A stretch of 64,000 nt of DNA, from the NCBI GenBank assembly GCA_947625735.1, contig CANQPL010000005.1, forward strand, positions 53,717 to 117,716, written 5' to 3'. The DNA comes from an uncultured Clostridia bacterium. Lineage in GTDB: Bacteria; Bacillota; Clostridia; Oscillospirales; Ruminococcaceae. Positions 48,599 through 63,888 of the stretch are shown here, one piece after another; position 1 is the stretch's first letter; every line of letters begins with the position of its first letter. The notes under the pieces are model-generated. The model ran no database searches and was not told where the DNA came from. It saw only the letters and a program-made list of their open reading frames with translations. Made by a program: the position numbers and the translations under genes.

Positions 48599-50902
48599 TC
48601 ATGCAAAGCTAAGAATTATCCTGCCGCCCTTTAACGTATCGGCAGAATAAACACCGTTTTCACAAGTAAAGGGCAGCTCCTGTCCGTTCTGTAAAGCTGT
48701 TACCTTTACATCACTTCTTATACGCAGAGTGTTTCCCGCAAGTGAGATAATTTCTCCGCTTCTGACATGACCCTCCTCCCAGTCAAAGGAAACCTTAAAA
48801 CCACCCCTTGCCTTCATTCCCGCAACTCTGCCCTTTCTCCATGAGGGGGGAAGTGCGGGGAGGAAAGCGATCACGCCGTCCACACTCCGGAGCAGCGCTT
48901 CTCCTATACCTGCGCCGCCGCCGAAATTTCCGTCTATCTGAAAAGGCGGGTGCATATCGAACATATTTATGCTTGTAGAATGTGCAAGAAGTGCGGCTAT
49001 ATTCTCCTCAACCTTTTCGCCGTCGCCGAGACGCGCCCACATATTGATTATCCATGCTCTTGACCAGCCCGTATGACCGCCGCCGTGGGCAAGTCTGCGC
49101 TCTATAGTTGCTCTTGCCGCAGCTGCAAGCTCGGGGGTTTTATGGGGGGTTATGGCGTAGTAGGGGTGGAGATAGTAAAGCTGGGAAATGTGACGGTGTC
49201 CGGGTTCTGCCTCGTCATAATCCTCCGCCCACTCCATTATCTGACCGTACTTGCCAATTTCGGGACGGGGAAGCCTTTTGGCGGCTTCGCCTATTTGTGC
49301 AGCCGTTGATCTTTCTTCGGGAGATAATTCATCTCCCAGAATATCTGCCGCTCCGGTCACTGCACCGAACAGGTGACGCAGAATACCGCTGTCCATAGAG
49401 GGACCCTTGCAGAGAGTACCCGTTCTGCCGTTTTTGGCGTAATAGGTATTTTCGGGGGATACGGAAGGGTTTGTCACAAGCCTGCCCTTTTCGTCCTCGG
49501 TAAGAAAATCAAGGAAAAACTCCGCAGCCTCCAGCATAGTATCAAACTTTTCGGAAAGGAAATCCCTGTCCTGTGTAAAAAGATAATGCTCCCAGATATG
49601 AGTACACAGCCATGCAAGACCCATGCACCAGAGAGTACCGGGCAGCCATTTATCCTGCGGGGCGGTATCCCCCCATATATCGGTATTATGATGACATACC
49701 GCACCCCGACAGTGGTACATTTTGCGGGCGGTGATACGTCCGTTTTCACGCATACGCTCTATATGGTCAAAAAGAGGCGTATGGCACTCGGGAAGATCCT
49801 GCATCTCCGCTCCCCAGTAATTCATCTCCGTATTTATATTGACGGTATACTTTCCGCCCCATGCGGGCCACATATCCTTGTTCCAGATGCCCTGTAGATT
49901 AAGGGGCAGAGTACCCTCTCTCGATCCCGCTATCATAAGATAACGTGAAAAATTAAAGTACATCACCGCAAGCTCGTTATCGGCTGCCCCGTCCTTAACA
50001 GCAGCAAGGCGCTTATCTGTCGTCATGGAGGAAACGTCCGAAACAGGCTCAATTTCAAGTGAACATCTGTCATACAACGCCTTATAATCTTTAATATGAC
50101 GTTCAAACAGTTTTTCCGCAGATTTTCTTGCGGCGGTCTTTGCCTGATAAATTGCTTTTTTCACATAATCGCCGCTGCGCCATGAGGAATAGGCGGCAAT
50201 GATAAGCATAGCCTCGTCCGCATTTTCGCAGACAAGACGGTTAGCGTATACGCCGCAGTTTCCGCCGCTGCATTTTACGGTTATCGCACAGGCATAGGGA
50301 ATTCCGTCAGACACGGTAAAGAGAATGGTTTTATCGTCATAAGCCTCATTTTTATCGTAATTATCGTCCCTGCCGTCAATGAATGCGGAAAAGGAAATGC
50401 ACCCTTTTTTGTCTGCGGTAAAATGGACTGCAATTATCTCATCGGGACAAGAGGCGATAACACGGCGGGAAAATACAGTCTCTCCGCATTTAAAAGAGGT
50501 TTCGCAAACGGCATTTTCAAGGTCAAGGCTTCTGAGGTAGTCGGTAACGGCGTCCTTTCCTCCTGTCTTTTGCAGGATATGCAGATCGCCCAGCGGCTGA
50601 TAATGCCGTTGATTTTCGTTAGTGCCGTAAAAGGCTTCTGCGCAAAGCTCTTCGGCTTCGGTAGTTTTCTCCTCGTTGATGAGAGTACGAATCTTCTCTA
50701 AATTCTCGTACGCCTTGGGATTATTGCGGTCACGGAACCCCCCCGACCAGAGGGAATCCTCATTGAGCTGTATAAGCTCCTCACAGGGGCTGCCGAAAAT
50801 CATACCGCCCATTCTTCCGTTGCCCACGGGCAGAGCCTCGTTCCAGTCGGCGGCGGGGCGGGTATAGTAAAGCAGCGATGTATTAATATTTTTGTTTGAC
50901 AT
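48599..50902 (-). CDS. Glycoside hydrolase family 95-like protein (alpha-L-fucosidase type), no signal peptide
   Basis: LLYYTRPAADWNEALPVGNGRMGGMIFGSPCEELIQLNEDSLWSGG; LQGIWNKDMWPAWGGKYTVNINTEMNYW; CHHNTDIWGDTAPQD; FQIDGNFGGGAGIGEALL. Confidence 0.93.
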   Translation of the reverse strand: MSNKNINTSLLYYTRPAADWNEALPVGNGRMGGMIFGSPCEELIQLNEDSLWSGGFRDRNNPKAYENLEKIRTLINEEKTTEAEELCAEAFYGTNENQRHYQPLGDLHILQKTGGKDAVTDYLRSLDLENAVCETSFKCGETVFSRRVIASCPDEIIAVHFTADKKGCISFSAFIDGRDDNYDKNEAYDDKTILFTVSDGIPYACAITVKCSGGNCGVYANRLVCENADEAMLIIAAYSSWRSGDYVKKAIYQAKTAARKSAEKLFERHIKDYKALYDRCSLEIEPVSDVSSMTTDKRLAAVKDGAADNELAVMYFNFSRYLMIAGSREGTLPLNLQGIWNKDMWPAWGGKYTVNINTEMNYWGAEMQDLPECHTPLFDHIERMRENGRITARKMYHCRGAVCHHNTDIWGDTAPQDKWLPGTLWCMGLAWLCTHIWEHYLFTQDRDFLSEKFDTMLEAAEFFLDFLTEDEKGRLVTNPSVSPENTYYAKNGRTGTLCKGPSMDSGILRHLFGAVTGAADILGDELSPEERSTAAQIGEAAKRLPRPEIGKYGQIMEWAEDYDEAEPGHRHISQLYYLHPYYAITPHKTPELAAAARATIERRLAHGGGHTGWSRAWIINMWARLGDGEKVEENIAALLAHSTSINMFDMHPPFQIDGNFGGGAGIGEALLRSVDGVIAFLPALPPSWRKGRVAGMKARGGFKVSFDWEEGHVRSGEIISLAGNTLRIRSDVKVTALQNGQELPFTCENGVYSADTLKGGRIILSFA

Positions 50903-51951: not shown

Positions 51952-53040
51952 TTACATACCCGTAAGACCCGAACGTGCTATACCCTCTGTAAAGTTCTTC
52001 TGTAAGAAGATGTACATTACAAGGATAGGCGTTATGGAGATAAGACAGCCTGCCTCCATCCATACGATAAGCTCTCTTGCGTTTACCTTAACGTTACCGT
52101 TGTTGAATATTACTCTCGTAAGCGATGCATCAAGGTTCTTGAGCTGCAATGCTATTGTGCTGTTATCCGTAAAGAATGAGGTACTTACATAGTAGTCGTT
52201 CCAGTACCATACTACGGAGAGCAGGAAAACTGTCAGGAATGTTGAACCCGCATTGGGGATCATTACCTGAATGAATGTCTTGAAGGGTGAGCAGCCGTCA
52301 AGATAAGCTGCGTCCTCAAGCTCTTTGGGAAGTCCTCTGAATGCCTGCCGGAACAGGAAGATAAACAGTCCTGCACGGATACCGTTTGCCGTAAGCGCAG
52401 GCATATACATGGTAAGAGGATTGTTTATAAGGTTGATGTAGTTCCCCGTTATCATGTGGTATACTCCGAGGGGATTGAAGTAACGGAAGAACATATACTG
52501 AGGGATAAGGATTATCTGCGAGGGCATGAGGATCATCATAATGACTACTCCGAAAAGTATTGACTTGCCCTTGAAGTTAAAACGTCCGAAGCCGTATCCC
52601 GTCAGCGCACAGGTGATGACCTGTACCAGCGAGCAGCCGATGTTGATAAACAGCGTGTTGCCCAGAGTGTTCCAGAAATCCATTGTCCTTGCGGCGTCCT
52701 TGATGTTCTGGAGAGTGTAGTTTTTCGATATCCAGATGATAGTCGGGTCGTTCATGTCCGCTCTCGGTCTGAATGCCGCTGTTATCATGTAGATAAGCGG
52801 ATAGATGATGACGAAGCATAATCCGAATACCAGCAGACCTCTGCATATAGGCCACACCATTTCAAATGCGCGTTTTCTTTTCAGATACTTCTGCTCTGCG
52901 GGGGTCAGGGTTGCAAGACGCTTCTTGAATCGTTCCCTTTCCTCCTTGCGGTTTCTTTTTTCGGGCTTGGGGGGCTTTTCCGACTGCGCCTTTTTAAGGA
53001 GGTCGGAAAACGGATTTGATTTTACTGCACTTTCTGCCAT
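51952..53040 (-). CDS. Carbohydrate ABC transporter permease (MalG-like; start at MAESAVKSNPFSD)
   Basis: MalG-type; EAA loop ELEDAAYLDGCSPFKTFIQVMIPNAG. Confidence 0.9.
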   Translation of the reverse strand: MAESAVKSNPFSDLLKKAQSEKPPKPEKRNRKEERERFKKRLATLTPAEQKYLKRKRAFEMVWPICRGLLVFGLCFVIIYPLIYMITAAFRPRADMNDPTIIWISKNYTLQNIKDAARTMDFWNTLGNTLFINIGCSLVQVITCALTGYGFGRFNFKGKSILFGVVIMMILMPSQIILIPQYMFFRYFNPLGVYHMITGNYINLINNPLTMYMPALTANGIRAGLFIFLFRQAFRGLPKELEDAAYLDGCSPFKTFIQVMIPNAGSTFLTVFLLSVVWYWNDYYVSTSFFTDNSTIALQLKNLDASLTRVIFNNGNVKVNARELIVWMEAGCLISITPILVMYIFLQKNFTEGIARSGLTGM

Positions 53041-53053
53041 TTTTTCCAACTCC

Positions 53054-53953
53054 TTAATCATCATAGTAGACAATTCGGTTCATTATCGCAAAGATAATAC
53101 CGACTGCCAGAAGCACAATTGCGAAATAACTCCATGCCATTGCTGCGGAGAAGCCGTATTTCCAGTCGTCCTGCACCGTCAGCACCTGCTCCATTACCAC
53201 GTTTGTGGGGTCAACGAAGGTATCAATAATGGTGTAGACAAGGTTTACAAGGATCATCGGGGAAACGTAGGGGAGGGTTATTTTCCAGAAAAATTCCCAT
53301 GATGTTGCGCCCTCTATCCCTGCTGCCTCCTTTGCGGAGGTGGGGATACCCTGAAGTGCAGAGAGGAAAATGATTATCTGTATACCGCATTTCCACACAA
53401 GATTCAGGATATCTGATGTCATGGTGGAAAGCATATCGGTGAGCTTATCGTTGAAGCCGTAGATACCTACAAATTCAAGAAGCTGGTCTACCATGTCCGC
53501 AGAGAACATGGAGGAGAACTGATCCGCATCTGCCGTTCCCGAGGTGTCAAGGTTACCGGTGATGATAGCATATACAGGACCTGTTGCAATGATAACGGGG
53601 AGGAAGAACACCGCTCTTGCAAATGTTCTGCCGAAAAATTCCTGATTGATGATGATCGCTACAAAGAGCGAGAATATGATGATGACCGGAGTCTGCCAGA
53701 GGGTCTGACCCAGCACCTCGGTAAGATTTACTCTGAAATCCGGGTCTACCATAAAGGCTCTCCTGAAATTGTCGATGCCGACCCAGCTCATCTGCAGCTT
53801 TCCTGTATCCGGCTTTACATCGTAGAACGAGTAAATAAACGACTCGATCACGGGAATGATAAAGAACATCAGCGCACCCACGAACCACAGGGCGACAAAG
53901 CCGTAGCCGTACAGTCCCTTACGCTTTTCGTAGGAAAGGTTCAGTCCTTTCAT
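53054..53953 (-). CDS. Sugar ABC transporter permease (MalF-like)
   Basis: EAA loop TSAKEAAGIEGATSWEFFWKITLPYVSPMILVNLVYTIID; six TM helices. Confidence 0.9.
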   Translation of the reverse strand: MKGLNLSYEKRKGLYGYGFVALWFVGALMFFIIPVIESFIYSFYDVKPDTGKLQMSWVGIDNFRRAFMVDPDFRVNLTEVLGQTLWQTPVIIIFSLFVAIIINQEFFGRTFARAVFFLPVIIATGPVYAIITGNLDTSGTADADQFSSMFSADMVDQLLEFVGIYGFNDKLTDMLSTMTSDILNLVWKCGIQIIIFLSALQGIPTSAKEAAGIEGATSWEFFWKITLPYVSPMILVNLVYTIIDTFVDPTNVVMEQVLTVQDDWKYGFSAAMAWSYFAIVLLAVGIIFAIMNRIVYYDD

Positions 53954-56247
53954 GATCCGATCACCTCCTCTCCTACATAGTCAGCAAGGTTATAGGTCTT
54001 GCCGTTTGCTTCGATAGTGTTCTTTTCAAGGTCTACCTTTGTAGTATAGCCGTTGTCGTAAGTTGTTTCTATGACATTTCCGTCCTCAGAGATGACATAG
54101 GAGGTCATCAGCGCATCAGAAGCAGGAGAAAGAACCTCGTCTGCCATACCGTAAAGGCTTGCGGCTTCCTCTATCCAGTTGGAGTAGTATGCATAGTAGT
54201 AAACGTCCAGCTTTGTATCCTTTAGCTCACTTGCCTCCATTCCCACGAAGTCAAAGCTCAGGTTGCTGCCTGCCGCAATTGATTTAAGCACCAGATTACC
54301 GATGTCCGCATCACCGTTTACGGAGGTTGCCGCATAGGGTGTGATACCGTGCATTACCATCTGATAGAAAGGAATGTCCTCATCAAATACGTCAAACTTG
54401 CTGGAATTAAGGGGAACATTTGTGATGTAATCAGCATAGGGAAGAACATATGCCGCTGCATTTTCTGCAAGCACGCTTCCGCTGTTCTTTGCAGAACCGT
54501 AAATGTTCTGAATATAGCCCTTTGCCATTTCACGGGAAACAGCCTTTTTGCCGTAATCGCCGTAAATTGTATTTGCAAGTGAACCGAAAGCGAAATTTGT
54601 TTCTCCCTTTTTGATATAACTGCTTATCAGCTTGCCGAATGCCTTTTCATAAGATGCGGGAGTGAAAAGGGACAGGGAAGAATAATACTTATTCTCAATG
54701 CCGTGAGCGAGATCGAATACGGGGATCTGAGCGTAGGCATTTGATACCCTGATAGATGTATTCGTCATGTTCCAGTAGCCGTTTCCTGTCTTGAACTGCT
54801 GATTGTCAATGGACGGGAACAGCTTTACATTGTTGGAATCCGCATATTCTCTGAGCTTCTTCCACTTGCTCTTGCCGCCCAGCTTTGAGGAGGGATTGAA
54901 GGAATCTGTTATCTTTTCGCCCAGATCCTCATTGGAGTACTCGTTATATGTCACTACCATGTCGTCTACTCCCCTCTCGCCCAGCACTTCAAGCATATAC
55001 TGAGCAGTGGCAAATGTTGTCACCGACTGCTTTACCGTAACGGGGATACCGAGGATCGACTCCTTTTTCAGCGTGCCGCCGTACAGGTCGATATACAGAG
55101 ATGATGTATCCGTAAGATCCTTATCCGCAACGTCCTGTTCGGTAAGCAGATAATTTCTGTAGGCGTCCGCTATGTCGATATAATCCACAGTGCCGTCGTC
55201 GGAGGATACGGGGTAGTACCTTATTTCGATCTCGGGGACTAATATTCCTCTCTTTTCAAATACGGTAAGGGGGTTGGATTCGCCGCCCATAAGGTACTGG
55301 TCAGAGGTCCTCAGCTCAAAATCAAAGTAGGTGGAGTTGTAGTCGGTATTGTTCTGATTTGAAACATAGGAGTTGATAGTAGCGCACGTATCACCCTTGT
55401 CCGCAACCACCATCATGCCGCCGCCGTCCTTGACAATGCCGTACATGGGGAAGCTCACATTCTGAATGACTGCCTGTTTCTGTGTCTTTACTGCTGTAAT
55501 GTCCCTGCCGTAGACCTTGCCCTTATAGGTGGCAAGACCTGTTTTTCCGTTGTTAAAATCAATAAGCGCACCGCTGCCGTCAGGAACTACGAAGTAACCC
55601 TCGTCCTCAAGACCCGCAGCTCCGAATGTAGTCATGAACGCCATATCGGCAACAAGCTGTCCGCTCACATTTGAGGGGTGTTCCTCGACAATGGCTGCCG
55701 TATCCACATGGAGTTTCATATGATCCTCTTCAAGTGTAATATCAACGGGGATCGTAATGCCGGGATCGGGGTAATAGTATTCAATATGGATACCATTATT
55801 TATCTTGCTCATTTTAAAGCTGCCCTTTGCACGGCTGGTCTGTGTCGTAGTGGAGCGGTTAGCGGGTTCTGCGTATATCAGCGTCATGCCCGAACCAAGT
55901 TCGTCCTTCTGGCTTTTCTTGGCATTAGAGGTTTCCAGATCAACGGGATTTGACCACCACAGCCTGCCTGTTTTCTTGTCCTCCAGCACAAGAGTGCCTT
56001 CGTCCGCATTAAATCTCAGGCTCATATTCGCATTGGACGCTGCCTCCTCAGTAAGTGCCAGTGCCTCTTCCTCGGTGCGGGGCGTCTCCTCTTCCTCTTC
56101 TTCGGAAGAGCTTTCCTCAGCAGCCGTCTCCTCTGCGGCGGGCTCTTCGTCCGAAAAGACCGCAGTCGCACCCGCAGGTATCAGCATGGCAAGGCAGAGC
56201 ATGAACGCAATGGATTTTTTTAGCTTTGAATGCATTGTTTTCACCAC
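53950..56247 (-). CDS. DUF5696-type secreted protein
   Basis: Signal peptide; NANMSLRFNADEGTLVLEDKKTGRLWWSNP; GYFVVPDGSGALIDFNNGK; family assignment by recall of gene context. Confidence 0.7.
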   Translation of the reverse strand: MVKTMHSKLKKSIAFMLCLAMLIPAGATAVFSDEEPAAEETAAEESSSEEEEEETPRTEEEALALTEEAASNANMSLRFNADEGTLVLEDKKTGRLWWSNPVDLETSNAKKSQKDELGSGMTLIYAEPANRSTTTQTSRAKGSFKMSKINNGIHIEYYYPDPGITIPVDITLEEDHMKLHVDTAAIVEEHPSNVSGQLVADMAFMTTFGAAGLEDEGYFVVPDGSGALIDFNNGKTGLATYKGKVYGRDITAVKTQKQAVIQNVSFPMYGIVKDGGGMMVVADKGDTCATINSYVSNQNNTDYNSTYFDFELRTSDQYLMGGESNPLTVFEKRGILVPEIEIRYYPVSSDDGTVDYIDIADAYRNYLLTEQDVADKDLTDTSSLYIDLYGGTLKKESILGIPVTVKQSVTTFATAQYMLEVLGERGVDDMVVTYNEYSNEDLGEKITDSFNPSSKLGGKSKWKKLREYADSNNVKLFPSIDNQQFKTGNGYWNMTNTSIRVSNAYAQIPVFDLAHGIENKYYSSLSLFTPASYEKAFGKLISSYIKKGETNFAFGSLANTIYGDYGKKAVSREMAKGYIQNIYGSAKNSGSVLAENAAAYVLPYADYITNVPLNSSKFDVFDEDIPFYQMVMHGITPYAATSVNGDADIGNLVLKSIAAGSNLSFDFVGMEASELKDTKLDVYYYAYYSNWIEEAASLYGMADEVLSPASDALMTSYVISEDGNVIETTYDNGYTTKVDLEKNTIEANGKTYNLADYVGEEVIGS

Positions 56248-56257
56248 TTTTCCTTAA

Positions 56258-56887
56258 TTAAACTCTTAATCTGTAGGATAACTCGGTATAGATCGTAAAT
56301 ATGAATATGATTACCTGCTGGAACAGTGTGAGCAGCAGAACGAGAAGGAACATCACCGCTACTATCGCAACCAGCGTAAGGGCGATAAGGCACAGCGTTC
56401 TTGGGAACGAGAACTGATGGACAGCTTTCATTGCCGATATAAACAGCACCACCGACCATGCCGTTCCGATTATCTCGAACAGCTGAATGAAGATGTACTC
56501 CTCTTGGATAAGAAAGTGCGAAAGCACTGTTCCCACAAGGTACCCCACAATATACGGTATCAGGGAATATGCCGTGACGATGTAGATATTTTTCATTGAA
56601 CCCTCACCGTCAAACAGAGTACACATTGCCCAGTTGCACACCACATAAAGCAGGAACAGACCGAAGCTCCTGAATATATAAGGAACGATGTTGAAAATTT
56701 TGTCATAGTCCGAGTAATACTGGAAGCCGTACATTCTGCTGTACGCAAGCTGCTGGATAAAGAGAAGCACCACAATACCCGTAGCGATCTTCATTGAGCC
56801 TGCCTTTTTCCAGCGCAGATCCTCAAAGCCCTCAAAGGGGTGCGTAACAACGTGCTTTACAAACTGACCCTGGGTAAGATCCAACAT
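56258..56887 (-). CDS. YIP1-family membrane protein
   Basis: HPFEGFEDLRWKKAGSMKIATGIVVLLF; IYIVTAYSLIPYIVGYLVGTVLSHFL; multi-TM. Confidence 0.75.
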   Translation of the reverse strand: MLDLTQGQFVKHVVTHPFEGFEDLRWKKAGSMKIATGIVVLLFIQQLAYSRMYGFQYYSDYDKIFNIVPYIFRSFGLFLLYVVCNWAMCTLFDGEGSMKNIYIVTAYSLIPYIVGYLVGTVLSHFLIQEEYIFIQLFEIIGTAWSVVLFISAMKAVHQFSFPRTLCLIALTLVAIVAVMFLLVLLLTLFQQVIIFIFTIYTELSYRLRV

Positions 56888-56890
56888 AGC

Positions 56891-58444
56891 TTACACACCG
56901 CCCTTTCTCTGCCACGGGAATGTAATTGTCCCGTTTTTGTTAAGTTTTTTCAGTACCGATATAACAATTGCAAGCACTATTATAATTATCAGCACGGGAG
57001 TGAAATATTTCTGCATAAGCTCATCTCTGTAGCCCTCGTATGCCTTGTTGTAGCGGCTGCGGCTGATAGAGATACGGAAGTATTTCATTGCCTCCTTATA
57101 CTGCTCGGAGTTAAGAAGCGCATTTCCGATACCGATATACGCTCTGCGGTAGTTGCCGTCATACTTTATAACGTTGAGCCACGGCTCATAGGATTCGGCA
57201 TAATATCCTTCATTGTAGAGATTTGTAGCCTCGGTAACTATCTCGCCGAATGCCGTCCTCTCAAATATGGTAATGCAGTTTTTACGGGAGTCAAGGACAT
57301 ATATTTTATTGTCATGACTCTCCAGTGCGGATACGCTTCGGAATGTGCCCAGCTGATCGCCTGTGCCGCCCAGAACGAACATAAGATTTGCCATTTTGTC
57401 ATACTGGAAAATACGTCCGTGAGCAAAGTCAAGAATGTTCATTTCGCCGTTAGGACCGATGTCAATATCCGTAAGCTGAGATTCCTTTGTGTATATAGAA
57501 TAGTATGCAGGTGAGATGTCGCCGAATGAGACCTCATCTCCCACCGTGGAGGCAAGGATATTGGCACCTCTCGGATTCAGCTTTTTCACCGTATCCGTCT
57601 TTACTTCGCTTGACTCTGTGACAGTGTAGATAAAGCCGTCGTCGTCAAGGTCAAAGTTTGTAAAGCCGATAGGTATGCTTCTCACCGAATGGGATCTCTG
57701 CTCATCGGTGGCGATCGTGTTCCAGAATGCGTTCATGATGATCTCAGCAGTCTGTTCAACACGGTTTGCGCCGTAGAAGCCCATGAATTCGCCGTTCATG
57801 TCATACATTACCGCACCCTTTGTTACCGAACGTACAACCACATAAACATTGCCCGCCTTATCCACAAGGACTTTCCTCGGGTTGAATGTAAGCTCCTGGG
57901 AATAAAGCTCGGTAGTGGGTTTTTCAAAGATCCTGTCAACATTTCCCTCGGTGTCGCATTTAATGACCCGGGCATTTTCCGTGTCGCAGATGTAAATATA
58001 GCCTGTATACTGATCCACAAACACGCCCTCGGGATTTTTAAGCGTCAGCTCCTCGCCGTTGTAATTAAATTTGTCAAGATAATTTACAAGATTAAAATCA
58101 AGATCCGTAACCAGTATCCTTGCATTGCCCTTATCCACAAGATAGATCAGATCGTCAGCCGATATATATATATCAGACGGCTCCTTGAAGTTAAGGAGGT
58201 TTTTCCAGCTCTCCTCATCATAATCAAAGCCCTCCATTGACTCTACCTTTTCGTAAAGCCCGTTTATGAGCTGACCGTCAATGGATTTTTCCGCCGTGTA
58301 ACCGACCTGTGAGGCAACAGCGTCGCCCCATCTGTCGTAGCTGTAAGGGTCGTAGCTTTCAGATGCCGAAACGCTTGCTGCACAGACACTTGTCATTATA
58401 AGACCTGCTCCCGCCGCAGCTATCAGCTTTTTAAAGCCTGACAT
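56891..58444 (-). CDS. Secreted/membrane-anchored NHL-repeat + TPR protein (start at MSGFKKLIAAAG)
   Basis: Signal peptide; NHL-like repeats LKNPEGVFVDQYTGYIYICDTENARVIKCDTEG; TPR AYIGIGNALLNSEQYKEAMKYFRIS; C-terminal TM. Confidence 0.8.
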   Translation of the reverse strand: MSGFKKLIAAAGAGLIMTSVCAASVSASESYDPYSYDRWGDAVASQVGYTAEKSIDGQLINGLYEKVESMEGFDYDEESWKNLLNFKEPSDIYISADDLIYLVDKGNARILVTDLDFNLVNYLDKFNYNGEELTLKNPEGVFVDQYTGYIYICDTENARVIKCDTEGNVDRIFEKPTTELYSQELTFNPRKVLVDKAGNVYVVVRSVTKGAVMYDMNGEFMGFYGANRVEQTAEIIMNAFWNTIATDEQRSHSVRSIPIGFTNFDLDDDGFIYTVTESSEVKTDTVKKLNPRGANILASTVGDEVSFGDISPAYYSIYTKESQLTDIDIGPNGEMNILDFAHGRIFQYDKMANLMFVLGGTGDQLGTFRSVSALESHDNKIYVLDSRKNCITIFERTAFGEIVTEATNLYNEGYYAESYEPWLNVIKYDGNYRRAYIGIGNALLNSEQYKEAMKYFRISISRSRYNKAYEGYRDELMQKYFTPVLIIIIVLAIVISVLKKLNKNGTITFPWQRKGGV

Positions 58445-58481
58445 ATCATCACCCTTTTCTTTATTATTTTCACGCATAGAA

Positions 58482-59459
58482 TTAGTCCTTCATACCTGCG
58501 TGAGCCATAGTTTCCATAACGTTTCTCTGAGCCAGTACAAATACCAGCAGAGGAGGGATCATAAGCACAACAGCCGATGCCGCAATTGCACCCTGACGGG
58601 CAATACCCGCAGCTGCGATCTGCTGTACCACAACGGGAATGGTCTTGAGTGCTTCATCGTATACAAGACCGCCGCCCGCCTGATTCCATGAGGTCTGGAA
58701 CTCAAAGATGATAATTGTCATAAGAGCAGGCTTACAGTTTGGCATTACTATGCCCCAGCAGATCCTCATAAGACCTGCACCGTCAACCTTAGCCGCCTCT
58801 ATCATCGCATCAGGGATAGTGCTCATGCTCTGACGCATAAGGTAAAGACCCATTGATGTAGCGATGATCGGCAGGATAAGTGCGGAATATGTGTTTATCA
58901 TGCCCATAGTAGCCATTACCATGTACTGCATGATGTAAAGTACCGTGGAGTTAAACAGCAGGGCGATGACTACCACTTCGTTAAGCAGCGCATTTCCGGG
59001 GAATTTGCACTTGCCCAGCACGAACGCCGCAGTGGACGCAAAAAGTACATGGAAAACGGTAGCCACAACAGTTACCATAAGGCTGTTAAACACATTTCTT
59101 GAAAACGGTACCCATGAATTGTTGGCGATCTTGAACAGATCCTGAAAATTGTTCAGAGTGGGGTCCATTGCGTACAGCTTAGGCGGCATGAGGAATACCT
59201 CCTGCACAGGCTTAATGGAGTTGACCACTGCCAGATAAATGGGGAATACCATAAACAGACCCATAAACAGCAGCAGCAGGAATATCCAGATATCGCTTTT
59301 CCATGATTTTCCCACTCGCTTATTGGAGCCTTTGGATTTGAGCATTTTCTTATGCTCTTTTTCTCTGCGCTTTCTGAGGGCTTCAAGAGCGGCGGCGTTT
59401 TCCTCCGCCTGTAAAGCGGCAAGCTCAGAGGGTTTCATATCCTTTTTTCTCTTCTTCAC
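58482..59459 (-). CDS. Carbohydrate ABC transporter permease (MalG-like)
   Basis: EAA loop DAMIEAAKVDGAGLMRICWGIVMPNCKPALMTI; six TM helices. Confidence 0.9.
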   Translation of the reverse strand: MKKRKKDMKPSELAALQAEENAAALEALRKRREKEHKKMLKSKGSNKRVGKSWKSDIWIFLLLLFMGLFMVFPIYLAVVNSIKPVQEVFLMPPKLYAMDPTLNNFQDLFKIANNSWVPFSRNVFNSLMVTVVATVFHVLFASTAAFVLGKCKFPGNALLNEVVVIALLFNSTVLYIMQYMVMATMGMINTYSALILPIIATSMGLYLMRQSMSTIPDAMIEAAKVDGAGLMRICWGIVMPNCKPALMTIIIFEFQTSWNQAGGGLVYDEALKTIPVVVQQIAAAGIARQGAIAASAVVLMIPPLLVFVLAQRNVMETMAHAGMKD

Positions 59460-59471
59460 AAGCTCACCCCT

Positions 59472-60428
59472 TTAGTCCATATATTTGCCCAGCAGATTGC
59501 TTACCAGCTTGTTGCACACAAGCATTACCACAAACAGCACAAAGCAAACTGCGGAGGAATAGCCCATCTCGTATCTTACCCAGCCGTAGTCATAGGCGTG
59601 GGTCATGATGGTGTGTACCTTATAGTCGGTGGAGGGGAAGCCTGCAAGCATTCTTCCCACAAGGTCTACGGTAAATGCGGATACTATCTGCATTACTGCC
59701 GCAAACATCAGAGAGGGTCCCATTGCGGGGATAGTTATGTAGATAAGCTCCTGAAAACGATTCTTGATGCCCTCTATCGCTCCTGCCTCGTACATGGACT
59801 TGTCAATACCCTGAAAGCCCGCTCTCATGGCAAGGAAACCTGCGCCCATGGATACCCACAGCTGTACAACGATAACACAGGCAAGAACGTAGTTTCCGTC
59901 GGTGAGCCACTGTATAGCGCTGGAGGTTATGCCCAGCTCCATGAGGAATGCATTAAGATAACCATACTGGTCGCCTGAGAAGATAAGCTGCCATACAAAG
60001 TAGATATTTCCTGCCATGGACGGCGCATAGAATATCAGCGTAAACAGCGTTTTAAGTGTGGGGTGCAGCTCATTTATGAGCCACGCCAGCAGAAAGCTCA
60101 TCGCATAGCTTAAAGGACCTGTAAATAATGCAAAAATAAGTGTTGTTCTGATAGAGCCGATAAATACATCGTCCTCCAGAAACATGGTGTAGAAGTTCTG
60201 GAAGCCGACCCACTTCGGAAAGCTTGCCATATCAAAGTCGGTAAATCCCATAGGGAGACTCATTACTACAGGTATTACCGTAAAGATAATGAAGAGGATC
60301 ATAAAGGGTGCAAGCATTATGTAGCACATATAGTTTCTCTTCATCTCATGGAGCGTGTAATCCCGTCTTTCCTTGCGGGACATTTTTCTCTCCGAAGGGA
60401 GAAGGATCTCTTTTTTAATTTCAGCCAA
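59472..60428 (-). CDS. Sugar ABC transporter permease (MalF-like)
   Basis: EAA loop DKSMYEAGAIEGIKNRFQELIYITIPAMGPSLMFA; six TM helices. Confidence 0.9.
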   Translation of the reverse strand: MAEIKKEILLPSERKMSRKERRDYTLHEMKRNYMCYIMLAPFMILFIIFTVIPVVMSLPMGFTDFDMASFPKWVGFQNFYTMFLEDDVFIGSIRTTLIFALFTGPLSYAMSFLLAWLINELHPTLKTLFTLIFYAPSMAGNIYFVWQLIFSGDQYGYLNAFLMELGITSSAIQWLTDGNYVLACVIVVQLWVSMGAGFLAMRAGFQGIDKSMYEAGAIEGIKNRFQELIYITIPAMGPSLMFAAVMQIVSAFTVDLVGRMLAGFPSTDYKVHTIMTHAYDYGWVRYEMGYSSAVCFVLFVVMLVCNKLVSNLLGKYMD

Positions 60429-60446
60429 AGCAAAAGCCCTCCTTCC

Positions 60447-63377
60447 TTAATCGTCAAGACCGAGATTCTTACGTTTACGTGTTATCTCGGAGTTGATGTC
60501 CTTATTGTACCACCTGAGTGTCTCACGGGCATTGTCCTGATCGTTTACGACTGCCCTGAATGCGTTCATGATACTTCTGGTAACAACATAGGACGATGGG
60601 ATAATGGGTATTTCTTCAAGCTCGTTGAGCTGAGCGTTGATCTTCTCAAGATCGGATTTTGACCAGTTGAGTCTCTGGAGAGCCTCTACATTGGCGGAAT
60701 CAAATCTTCCGAGAGGTCCCATTACGCCCTCTACGTTCTGTCCGTAGGCAATCATGGTATCTGTATCGGTAAACCACTTGATGTACTCCCATGCGCCCTG
60801 AACATTCTTGCAGTCCTTGAGAATGATAAATCCTGAGCCTGAGGAGTTTGCTGCATGAGAAACTGTGCCGTCCTCACGTCTGGTGCCCGGTACGGGAGCA
60901 AAATCCCATGCGCCCTTTATTTCGGGAGCCGCAACGTTGAGCTGATTATAGAATGTGTTATAGTTCTGGATTACGATAGGCGCTTCACCTGTTCTGAAAC
61001 GAGTGAAGGCATCGTAGGTCTGGTCAAAGTTGTAGGTCGTGTAGAATTTTGTCCACATATCGAAAGCGTTTACCGCTTCAACGGTGTCAAAATTGGTTGC
61101 TGTCTGATCCTCATTATAATAGCCCTGACCGCTCTGGAGCATAAGCATTGCAAAGGTATGACCTACCTCTGTGGAGGGCGCTACCGCCGTACCGTTTACG
61201 TTTCCGGGAAGTATAAGACCCGGCTGCATATAACGTCTCTGGATAGCGGGGAGCATATCAATGAGATCGTCCCATGTCTCGGGAGGCTCTGTAATTCCAA
61301 GCTCAGTGAGCGTATCAGTTCTGTAGAACATCATGGGGAATGTACGGGAAATGGGTATGCCGTACGCCTTGCCGTCATAGGTGTAGTGTACCATTGCGGT
61401 ATCTTGGAAACGGCTTACGACTTCATCAAAACCGTCCATATCATCAAGGGGAACGAGAAGATTACGGATAGCAAGGTTTACGGGGAACTCTCCGCCCACA
61501 AACATTGCCACGTCAGGACCCTTGCCTGCAAGCACTGCCTCCATGATAGTACCCTGTACAAGGTTAATGGAAACATCAACGCCCGTTTCGGGGATAAATT
61601 CTGATTCGGTAAGATCCTTTACAACTGTTGTCTGGTCACGTCCGAGTCCGCACCATACGATAATAGAATCTGCGGAAGCATCGGAAAGGACGGTATAGTC
61701 CTCAAAGAATGATCCGAAAAATCCCTTGAAAGCAAATGACAAAGCCTTGAAGAAATTTTCCTTGACGCTTGTAAACTTGCCGTCTGCGGGAACAAGCTCA
61801 ATGAAGTCAATTTCAAGGGGCTGATCCCTGTACTCTCTCATCCACGAAGAAACGGCAGATATGTTGTCCTTGATAGAGCTGTTGGAAATGTAGGTGGGGA
61901 TCTTGTTAGGCTTTTCTGTGCAGCGGTCAAAAACGTCCGCAAGCCTTGCAAGAGCCTGCGCTTCTGAGCCTGTCTGCTGAGAAAGTCCCTCTATTACCTC
62001 CTGCTCAGTTTTAAGCTGTGCAGAAAGATCGGTGCAGACGCCGAGAAGCTCGGGTATTTCCTGATGAACATAATAATCCGTGTATTTGTCGGGATTAGGA
62101 CCTGTTATCATCAGTATCTGAGTGTAGTAATCATTTGCAGTGGTAACGATCTTATCAAGACGTCTCATGGACTCGCCTATCTCACCCGGAATAGCTTCAA
62201 GAGTGAGGGTATGCTTGCCGGCGGTAAGATAGAGATATGCATCATCGCCTGCATCGTCCTTTGGAGTTACCATTATCCAGTTGGTGTCATAATTGAATTT
62301 GATCTGTTCAAATGGAGCTGAGGGGACTTCGCCGTCAATGAGGAGCTTTCTGTTTGAGTAAAGACCTCTCATAACGTCCTGTCTGCCCTTGATGCCCACC
62401 TTGTACCAGCCGTCGGTGGGAACGTCCATTTCCCATGTTACCTGCTGACCCGAGGTATCCCATGTGCCGTCGCCCACGGTATTGTAGCGCTCTTTAACGG
62501 GGTGGGACTCATTTCCGGTATGATCCTCGGTAAGATATGTACCTCTGTCGTAGGTGGGGTAAATTGTCTGTGAGTTTGTGGTTATGTAGTTTTCGCCCTG
62601 AATCCTGATAGGTGCAGTGCCTGAGTTAAGGCTCAGCTCTGCGCTTGAGGGCTTGGTATAGGCGGGGGCGGGCTCATACTGGCAGAGCTTGATGTAAGCA
62701 ATGGCAACAGACGCTTTCTCGGAGGAAAGGCTGATAGTATGCTCACCTTCATCTAAGTAGAAGTAGAGAGGCTCATTAAAAAGTCCGTCTGAATCCTTAA
62801 TAAATGTAGTTACCCATTCGGGTGCTTCGATCTGGGGAGGACGTGTCTCATTATCCCTCTCGTTGGGAGTAATGGGGTGTGACGACTTCCAGACTCTCGG
62901 GAAGTTTACATGGGTAGCTGTGTCGTAGGGGCTTTCGCCGTCAAGCAGGACGGACATTTCGGTGGTCGTGTTTCCTCCGGTAATGGGATAGTAGCAGACC
63001 TCGATATTATATGCGCCCGCTTTTTCTATAGCGGCGGAAAAGTCGATCTGTCCCTCCTCATTTGACCAGACGATAACATCGTCCTTGCCCTCAAAGCTCT
63101 TGACCTCCACCTCAGCGGTATCGGAGGAGGACTTATACCCGAGATAGATTTCATCTCTGGGTCGTGCCGCATTTTCGATCGAGTCGTAGTAATCGCTGTA
63201 GGTAGTTTGCTTTACGTAACTGATCGTGGGCTTCGTTTCGGAAGCGGCGGCAGTCTGCTGAGTGTCGCTGTCGGCAGGCTCAGCATCGGCAAAGGCAGTA
63301 AACGACACACTTGTTACGCATATCATCAGAGCCATTATGCCGGACAGCAGTCTTTTCAGACTTGTTTTCCTTGACAA
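60447..63377 (-). CDS. Large extracellular solute-binding protein with N-terminal carbohydrate-binding-like domains (TTG start proposed at 63377)
   Basis: AGGTGG RBS then TTG giving MSRKTSLKRLLSGIMALMICVTSVSFTAFA signal peptide; C-terminal SBP family 1 fold (VLAGKGPDVAMFVGGEFPVNLAIRNLLVPLDD; IPISRTFPMMFYRTDTLTELGI). Confidence 0.85.
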   Translation of the reverse strand: MSRKTSLKRLLSGIMALMICVTSVSFTAFADAEPADSDTQQTAAASETKPTISYVKQTTYSDYYDSIENAARPRDEIYLGYKSSSDTAEVEVKSFEGKDDVIVWSNEEGQIDFSAAIEKAGAYNIEVCYYPITGGNTTTEMSVLLDGESPYDTATHVNFPRVWKSSHPITPNERDNETRPPQIEAPEWVTTFIKDSDGLFNEPLYFYLDEGEHTISLSSEKASVAIAYIKLCQYEPAPAYTKPSSAELSLNSGTAPIRIQGENYITTNSQTIYPTYDRGTYLTEDHTGNESHPVKERYNTVGDGTWDTSGQQVTWEMDVPTDGWYKVGIKGRQDVMRGLYSNRKLLIDGEVPSAPFEQIKFNYDTNWIMVTPKDDAGDDAYLYLTAGKHTLTLEAIPGEIGESMRRLDKIVTTANDYYTQILMITGPNPDKYTDYYVHQEIPELLGVCTDLSAQLKTEQEVIEGLSQQTGSEAQALARLADVFDRCTEKPNKIPTYISNSSIKDNISAVSSWMREYRDQPLEIDFIELVPADGKFTSVKENFFKALSFAFKGFFGSFFEDYTVLSDASADSIIVWCGLGRDQTTVVKDLTESEFIPETGVDVSINLVQGTIMEAVLAGKGPDVAMFVGGEFPVNLAIRNLLVPLDDMDGFDEVVSRFQDTAMVHYTYDGKAYGIPISRTFPMMFYRTDTLTELGITEPPETWDDLIDMLPAIQRRYMQPGLILPGNVNGTAVAPSTEVGHTFAMLMLQSGQGYYNEDQTATNFDTVEAVNAFDMWTKFYTTYNFDQTYDAFTRFRTGEAPIVIQNYNTFYNQLNVAAPEIKGAWDFAPVPGTRREDGTVSHAANSSGSGFIILKDCKNVQGAWEYIKWFTDTDTMIAYGQNVEGVMGPLGRFDSANVEALQRLNWSKSDLEKINAQLNELEEIPIIPSSYVVTRSIMNAFRAVVNDQDNARETLRWYNKDINSEITRKRKNLGLDD

Positions 63378-63560: not shown

Positions 63561-63589
63561 ATTATATCAAAATGTACAACGATTGTCAA
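63561..63589 (-). promoter_or_regulatory. Consensus promoter of the ABC transporter operon
   Basis: Minus strand TTGACA-N17-TATAAT. Confidence 0.88.
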
Positions 63590-63689: not shown

Positions 63690-63855
63690 TGTGAATTTAA
63701 ATAAAAATATCCTCCCGGGGAAAGTTTTCCGTGAGAGGATAATGAAATGATCAAGGGAAAGGCGACCCGCCTTTTTAAATAAAAGGTAGTACCCCCGTGG
63801 AAGTTACCGGCTCCACGGGGGTACTTTAGTCAAGTGTGACTTATGCTCCTGGTAA
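63690..63855 (-). ncRNA. Candidate small structured RNA with its own promoter and terminator
   Basis: Minus strand TTGACA-N17-TATAAT (63888-63860), then a 13-bp perfect stem GTACCCCCGTGGA/TCCACGGGGGTAC, AAGGCG-GGT-CGCCTT hairpin, and ATCCTC...GAGGAT-ATTTTTATTT terminator; no ORF. Confidence 0.6.
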
Positions 63856-63859
63856 TTTT

Positions 63860-63888
63860 ATTATACATCAAATAACCCGATTTGTCAA
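63860..63888 (-). promoter_or_regulatory. Consensus promoter driving the candidate sRNA
   Basis: Minus strand TTGACA-AATCGGGTTATTTGATG-TATAAT, 17-nt spacer. Confidence 0.85.

Follow-up and report, generated by a model that had tools for sequence, protein, structure and literature searches.

A conserved eight-gene operon of Ruminococcaceae with two CUT1 permease pairs and three accessory proteins, and its possible role as an oligosaccharide import hub

The stretch of DNA analysed here (the window, 64,000 nucleotides) is the end of contig CANQPL010000005.1 from an uncultured Clostridia bacterium of the family Ruminococcaceae, whose Ruminococcus-like genome (G000) has a size of 3.0 Mb and is 93.6% complete. 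At 51952-63377 it carries an operon of eight minus-strand genes which code, in this order, for a 1000-residue solute-binding protein (SBP), the permeases MalF1 and MalG1, an NHL-TPR protein, a YIP1-family protein, a DUF5696 protein and a second permease pair, MalF2 and MalG2. The distances between the genes range from -20 to +18 nucleotides, and none of the eight is an ATPase gene. The gene order, strand and protein families given in the initial annotation were confirmed, but not its total of nine genes, as its own list contains the eight that are present. The arrangement is strongly conserved in relatives. The explanation favored here, to which an even chance is given, is that the products of the operon form the membrane-bound and surface-exposed core of a composite ATP-binding cassette (ABC) importer of the CUT1 family working as a hub.

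The conservation of the module was followed in 92 Bacillota loci (30 from Ruminococcus, 60 further stretches and two annotated plasmids), which were scanned with eight protein profiles. The Ruminococcus loci came from a DUF5696 scan of named genomes and reach down to 25% identity in that protein; all those uncut by contig ends keep the identical eight genes in the identical order. The recurrence of this order at such low identity indicates that the arrangement is not due to chance. The genes for the large SBP, MalF1, MalG1, NHL, DUF5696, MalF2 and MalG2 occur together in 75 of the 92 loci, whereas the 17 incomplete loci are mostly cut by contig ends. YIP1 is a separate gene in 55 of the complete modules and is fused to the C-terminus of the NHL protein in the other 20. 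The genes fall into two blocks, A (large SBP, MalF1, MalG1) and B (NHL-YIP1, DUF5696, MalF2, MalG2), whose order is swapped to B-A in other lineages. In a few genomes, such as G206 and G299, the two blocks are unlinked, yet both are present. Among 149 genomes of the family, DUF5696 was found with a strong score in 45, the large SBP in 45 and both in 44, so that the two coincide in 44 of 46 carriers; in both exceptions the genes lie at contig ends. The accessory genes, which had been suspected of travelling with the permeases, are therefore obligatory companions of them rather than genes frequently found elsewhere. The resemblance to Paenibacillus-type arrangements given in the initial annotation also proved right, as the module is found on a plasmid of Paenibacillus cellulosilyticus.

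Both permease pairs are of the MalF/MalG type with the EAA coupling motif, which is intact in all four proteins. Pfam BPD_transp_1 matches MalG1 (58482..59459, minus strand, also matched by the UgpE model at E=1e-30), MalF2 (53054..53953, minus strand, also matched by the UgpA model) and MalG2 (51952..53073, minus strand). MalF1 (59472..60428, minus strand) has no Pfam match and is recognized by the NCBIfam UgpA model (E=1e-16). In homologues, an EAA-like motif was counted in 79 of 79 MalF1, 80 of 81 MalG1, 80 of 90 MalF2 (with a crude pattern) and 83 of 87 MalG2 sequences. The module is not the sole source of CUT1 permeases in its genomes, since other CUT1-like pairs are present (four in G000, one in G118 and two in G114). 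A CUT1-like MalF/MalG pair without SBP lies beside an HlyD-type adaptor in G000 (L159:2156-7010) and in G091 (L173:678-6181); the former also adjoins a MacB-core protein. Such loci combine, unusually, permeases of importers with adaptors of the efflux type.

The energy for both pairs would be supplied by one ATPase encoded elsewhere. In Caldicellulosiruptor bescii, MsmK is the ATPase common to several CUT1 importers (PMC8579813). An MsmK-class ATPase scoring above the curated cut-off is present in 42 of 45 module genomes versus 67 of 104 others (Fisher p=2e-4, not corrected for phylogeny). The three module genomes without it are 93.6, 70 and 75% complete, and the possibility that the module dispenses with MsmK was rejected, given the 42 of 45 and the incompleteness of these exceptions. 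In addition, ugpC directly precedes the large SBP gene on the P. cellulosilyticus plasmid (NZ_CP054609). The evidence for a shared UgpC/MsmK-class ATPase is thus good for the system as a whole, whereas in the source genome such an ATPase is presumptive; the MsiK-like ATPase suggested by the initial annotation holds in relatives, but no MsmK was found in the genome for which it had been proposed.

Among the accessory proteins, the secreted DUF5696 protein (53950..56247, minus strand) is matched by Pfam PF18952 at E=1.3e-144 (483 bits against a cut-off of 25.6). Its AlphaFold2 model, built from 21 sequences, has a predicted local distance difference test (pLDDT) value of 79.6 and a predicted template modelling score (pTM) of 0.83, and consists of a beta-sandwich, a (beta/alpha)8 barrel and a C-terminal sandwich, as in GH129 and GH101. 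Foldseek matched the whole chain to the GH129-like 3,6-anhydro-D-galactosidase 5opq (E=5e-27), to the GH129 enzyme NagBb (5wzr; template modelling scores 0.59/0.70) and to GH101 enzymes (E ~1e-15). Matches to pentatricopeptide structures in the PDB were discarded as repeat artefacts. DUF5696 is therefore strongly predicted to fold like GH129/GH101 glycosidases. A scan of 200 genomes for family GH129, intended for a residue-level comparison, yielded no member. At barrel strands 4 and 5 (positions 555/556 and 595), where the nucleophile Asp and the acid/base Glu were expected from strand order and sequence spacing rather than from a residue-level structural alignment, no acid is conserved across 113 aligned DUF5696 sequences and the columns are variable. 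The near-invariant residues of the same alignment are D223, D564, R572, N598, Q629, H633 and N644. It has been reported that ZGAL_3152 (ZgGH129-like) has one of the two catalytic residues of NagBb and that catalytic residues can shift within the fold (PMC5698469). Non-catalytic carbohydrate binding appears more likely than hydrolysis by a new catalytic arrangement, and the variability at the expected catalytic positions casts doubt on the processing role suggested in the initial annotation for the NHL-TPR and DUF5696 proteins.

The NHL-TPR protein (56891..58477, minus strand) has a signal peptide, an NHL beta-propeller (Pfam NHL, 6.8e-13), a TPR-like segment and a single transmembrane segment near its C-terminus (residues 486-515); TPR matches are found in its homologues. 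The adjoining YIP1-family protein (56258..56887, minus strand; Pfam Yip1, E=1.1e-17) is polytopic, with at least four transmembrane-like segments. Their fusion was confirmed by Pfam in three loci (L103, L109 and L143). Such a fusion indicates that NHL-TPR and YIP1 would form one subunit, whose propeller and TPR-like part lie outside the cell on a membrane base. Of the extracellular scaffold or processing unit envisaged in the initial annotation, the scaffold is plausible in view of the signal peptide and transmembrane helix of NHL-TPR, its fusion to YIP1 in many lineages and the predicted fold of DUF5696, whereas processing seems doubtful.

The large SBP (60447..63377, minus strand), of about 975-1000 residues, contains a signal peptide, two predicted beta-sandwiches, a predicted helical linker and a C-terminal CUT1 SBP domain. 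It is a family-1 SBP (Pfam SBP_bac_8/SBP_bac_1, with E=2.4e-26 for SBP_bac_8), and no lipobox was found in it. In its AlphaFold2 model (pLDDT 79, pTM 0.75) the C-terminal domain matches the CUT1 SBPs 5ysb and 5ci5, both by Foldseek and by hidden Markov models. Translation likely starts at a TTG at 63377 behind the ribosome site AAAGGTGG, in agreement with the end given in the initial annotation, and not at the beginning of the longest open reading frame (63452).

Ordinary SBPs constitute the other group of binding proteins connected with the module. Clustering revealed a protein of 430-600 residues beside the module in 30 loci, and the cluster representative is an ordinary SBP; at one locus five such genes stand in a row. 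On the Butyrivibrio plasmid two ordinary SBPs directly follow MalG2, and on the Paenibacillus plasmid two lie a few genes further on. This adjacent SBP is mostly missing from Ruminococcaceae modules, and related SBPs are found there as orphans. A profile of module-adjacent SBPs matched five SBPs in G000, four in G114 (a nearly complete genome) and two in G118 (complete). Those of G000 lie on contigs without PF00528, and those of the other two genomes are over 100 kb away from the nearest PF00528. In these three genomes the profile gives the orphans 141-164 bits, versus 0-67 for SBPs that have CUT1 permeases of their own. A maximum-likelihood tree groups the orphans in a single clade (100/99), nested within a clade that also contains the module-adjacent SBPs (97/98), and SBPs linked to their own permeases fall outside. 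The orphan family tracks the module, with members in 39 of 45 module genomes versus 8 of 104 others (p=1e-21, not corrected for phylogeny). A CUT1 permease pair is present in the fetched stretch of one of 50 orphan loci (L179). As every CUT1 pair outside the module in G114 and G118 has an adjoining gene for an SBP or SBP-like lipoprotein, assigning the orphans to the module is the most parsimonious choice. The assignment of one SBP to two permease pairs is thus correct at this locus but not in general, given the ordinary SBPs beside the second pair and the orphans of Ruminococcaceae. In G010 (contig C5; L176:5601-18983) about eight orphan genes for CUT1-type SBPs are arranged in tandem; two of them appear frame-broken, and the 20 kb stretch contains no permease gene.

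In the proposed mechanism, unit A would comprise the large multidomain SBP with MalF1/MalG1 and be fed by this built-in SBP, while unit B would comprise MalF2/MalG2, the NHL-TPR-YIP1 protein or proteins and DUF5696. Both permease pairs would be powered by the common UgpC/MsmK-class ATPase. NHL-TPR and YIP1, as one membrane-anchored subunit, and DUF5696 with its GH129-like predicted fold may build an extracellular platform beside the permeases, which would hold or present oligosaccharides and keep units A and B together or alongside each other at the outer face. Unit B would be fed by ordinary lipoprotein SBPs, adjacent to the operon in many lineages and acting in trans, as orphans, in Ruminococcaceae. 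The neighboring enzymes vary by lineage (GH95 near this locus, GH26, GH3, GH10 and GH43 elsewhere), and GH5 or GH9 stands beside some orphan SBPs; these differences suggest that the hub is probably not bound to a single glycan. A bolder version, which seems rather unlikely, describes a single envelope machine in which the two permease pairs are physically joined via NHL-TPR-YIP1 and the catalytically retired glycosidase DUF5696, with at most about ten dispersed lipoprotein SBPs docking on it; it would be a Gram-positive glycan-capture hub and a functional counterpart of SusCD of Bacteroidota.

Several observations weigh against the hub. The orphans were detected with a profile of the very SBPs to which they are compared, and the SBP tree has long branches. 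The association statistics are not corrected for phylogeny. Eight genomes have an orphan-type SBP but no detected module, and five of them (G005, G027, G097, G127 and G140) are at least 95% complete; conversely, six module genomes are devoid of orphan-type SBPs. The orphans might instead function in sensing or together with different CUT1 permeases. Moreover, MsmK was not found in the source genome, probably as a consequence of its 93.6% completeness. The best UgpC/MsmK-class match there, CysA (L034), adjoins the sulfate permeases CysT/CysW and was rejected as the MsiK ATPase.

The same data can also be read as two ordinary CUT1 importers sharing one operon and one substrate class, with NHL-TPR/YIP1 and DUF5696 belonging to B alone and the orphan SBPs unrelated. 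The unlinked blocks of some genomes, the constant sub-block of NHL, DUF5696, MalF2 and MalG2, and the ordinary SBP beside MalG2, which in many lineages makes B a complete importer, agree with this explanation. It is nevertheless considered unlikely, as A and B co-occur in 44 of 46 genomes, nearly always in a single operon, and most B blocks of Ruminococcus lack an adjacent SBP and would need an orphan or the large SBP. A surface processing importer, in which DUF5696 represents a new family of active glycosidases and trims oligosaccharides before their import by both pairs, would account for the predicted three-domain GH129/GH101-like fold, for the strong conservation of Asp223, Asp564, Arg572, Asn598, His633 and Asn644 and for the GH95, GH26, GH10, GH3 and GH43 neighbors; the variable positions 555/556 and 595, at which the 113 sequences show no conserved nucleophile or acid/base, render it improbable. 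Finally, the permeases with NHL/YIP1 could signal extracellular sugars to a regulator, transport being secondary. A two-component system adjoins the Butyrivibrio copy and LacI genes adjoin some others, but most copies have no adjacent regulator, all four permeases keep their EAA coupling motifs and MsmK tracks the module, which leaves a sensing function very improbable.

As regards the surroundings of the operon, a sigma-70-like site (63561..63589, minus strand; TTGACA-17-TATAAT, 12/12 match, TG ahead of the -10 element) lies about 200 nucleotides before the SBP start and is the probable operon promoter. A scan of the operon and its leader against Rfam gave no match above chance. Farther upstream, the minus strand has at 63788-63888 another promoter-like site with a perfect match (TTGACA-17-TATAAT), followed after 35 nucleotides by a 38-nucleotide terminator-like hairpin with 15 pairs and a T-rich tail. 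Strong but differing hairpins occur in this region in several relatives, likewise without an Rfam match; the region may encode a small RNA or mark where an upstream unit ends. In close relatives a secreted protein of 560-600 residues is encoded upstream of the module (L044:81-1769, L045:629-2401, L051:539-2317 and L052:399-2195). It has a C-terminal TGNAP...KKRG tail resembling a wall or membrane anchor, and the L044 copy has no Pfam match. The contig stops at 64000, short of the position held by this gene in relatives, and the visible upstream region ends there. On the other side, 1,049 nucleotides downstream of the operon, lies the gene of a cytoplasmic GH95 protein of the fucosidase/galactosidase family (48599..50902, minus strand), which adjoins the module in 11 Ruminococcaceae loci. 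It was excluded from the core, since it accompanies the module in near relatives only and has its own promoter-like site at 50960-50932. As for the plasmid copies, the 243 kb plasmid pNP243 of Butyrivibrio fibrisolvens (L142) carries the complete module, preceded by genes for GH43 and for a histidine kinase/response regulator. On the P. cellulosilyticus plasmid (L143:18111-27331), the module is followed by several LLM flavin-dependent oxidoreductases, with SBPs of another family between them, which hint at non-sugar substrates in that lineage.

The usual ABC importer consists of one SBP, two permeases and two ATPase subunits. The module resembles CUT1 importers with a shared ATPase (MsmK/MsmX/MsiK) in its MalF/MalG permeases with EAA motifs, its family-1 SBP domain and the lack of a dedicated ATPase gene, a UgpC/MsmK-class ATPase being present in nearly all module genomes. 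It differs from them in having two obligatory permease pairs, a 1000-residue SBP extended at its N-terminus by two additional sandwiches, and three accessory proteins never parted from the permeases. Other importers are served by more than one SBP, such as the oligopeptide systems Ami/Opp and HisJ/LAO with HisQMP. Several binding proteins are likewise proposed here for one permease, and module-related SBPs without their own permeases were found; unlike in those systems, they are dispersed orphans tied to the module by phylogeny and co-occurrence only, and the permease has NHL-TPR-YIP1 and a companion with a predicted glycosidase fold. DUF5696 shares its predicted whole-chain fold with the GH129/GH101 alpha-N-acetylgalactosaminidases and the ZgGH129-like enzyme (5opq), from which it differs by its identity of about 11-14%, the absence of conserved catalytic acids and its constant linkage to ABC permease pairs. 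The SusCD hubs of Bacteroidota offer a general analogy, as a surface platform captures glycans before import, but there is no homology, and the module belongs to a Gram-positive single membrane with ABC permeases instead of a TonB-dependent channel. The transport core is of the CUT1 family, and its four-permease, three-accessory form with linked orphan SBPs is a variant for which no description was found in the open-access literature. The papers searched there contain no mention of DUF5696, and none on YIP1 together with NHL gives an account of the system; subscription papers were outside these searches.

The four-permease, three-accessory architecture has been held together across much of Bacillota, from Ruminococcus of the rumen and gut to Butyrivibrio and Paenibacillus. 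If the hub is real, it would provide a function for three unstudied protein families, account for the orphan sugar-binding proteins of Ruminococcus and alter the prediction of glycan uptake in fibre-degrading gut bacteria.

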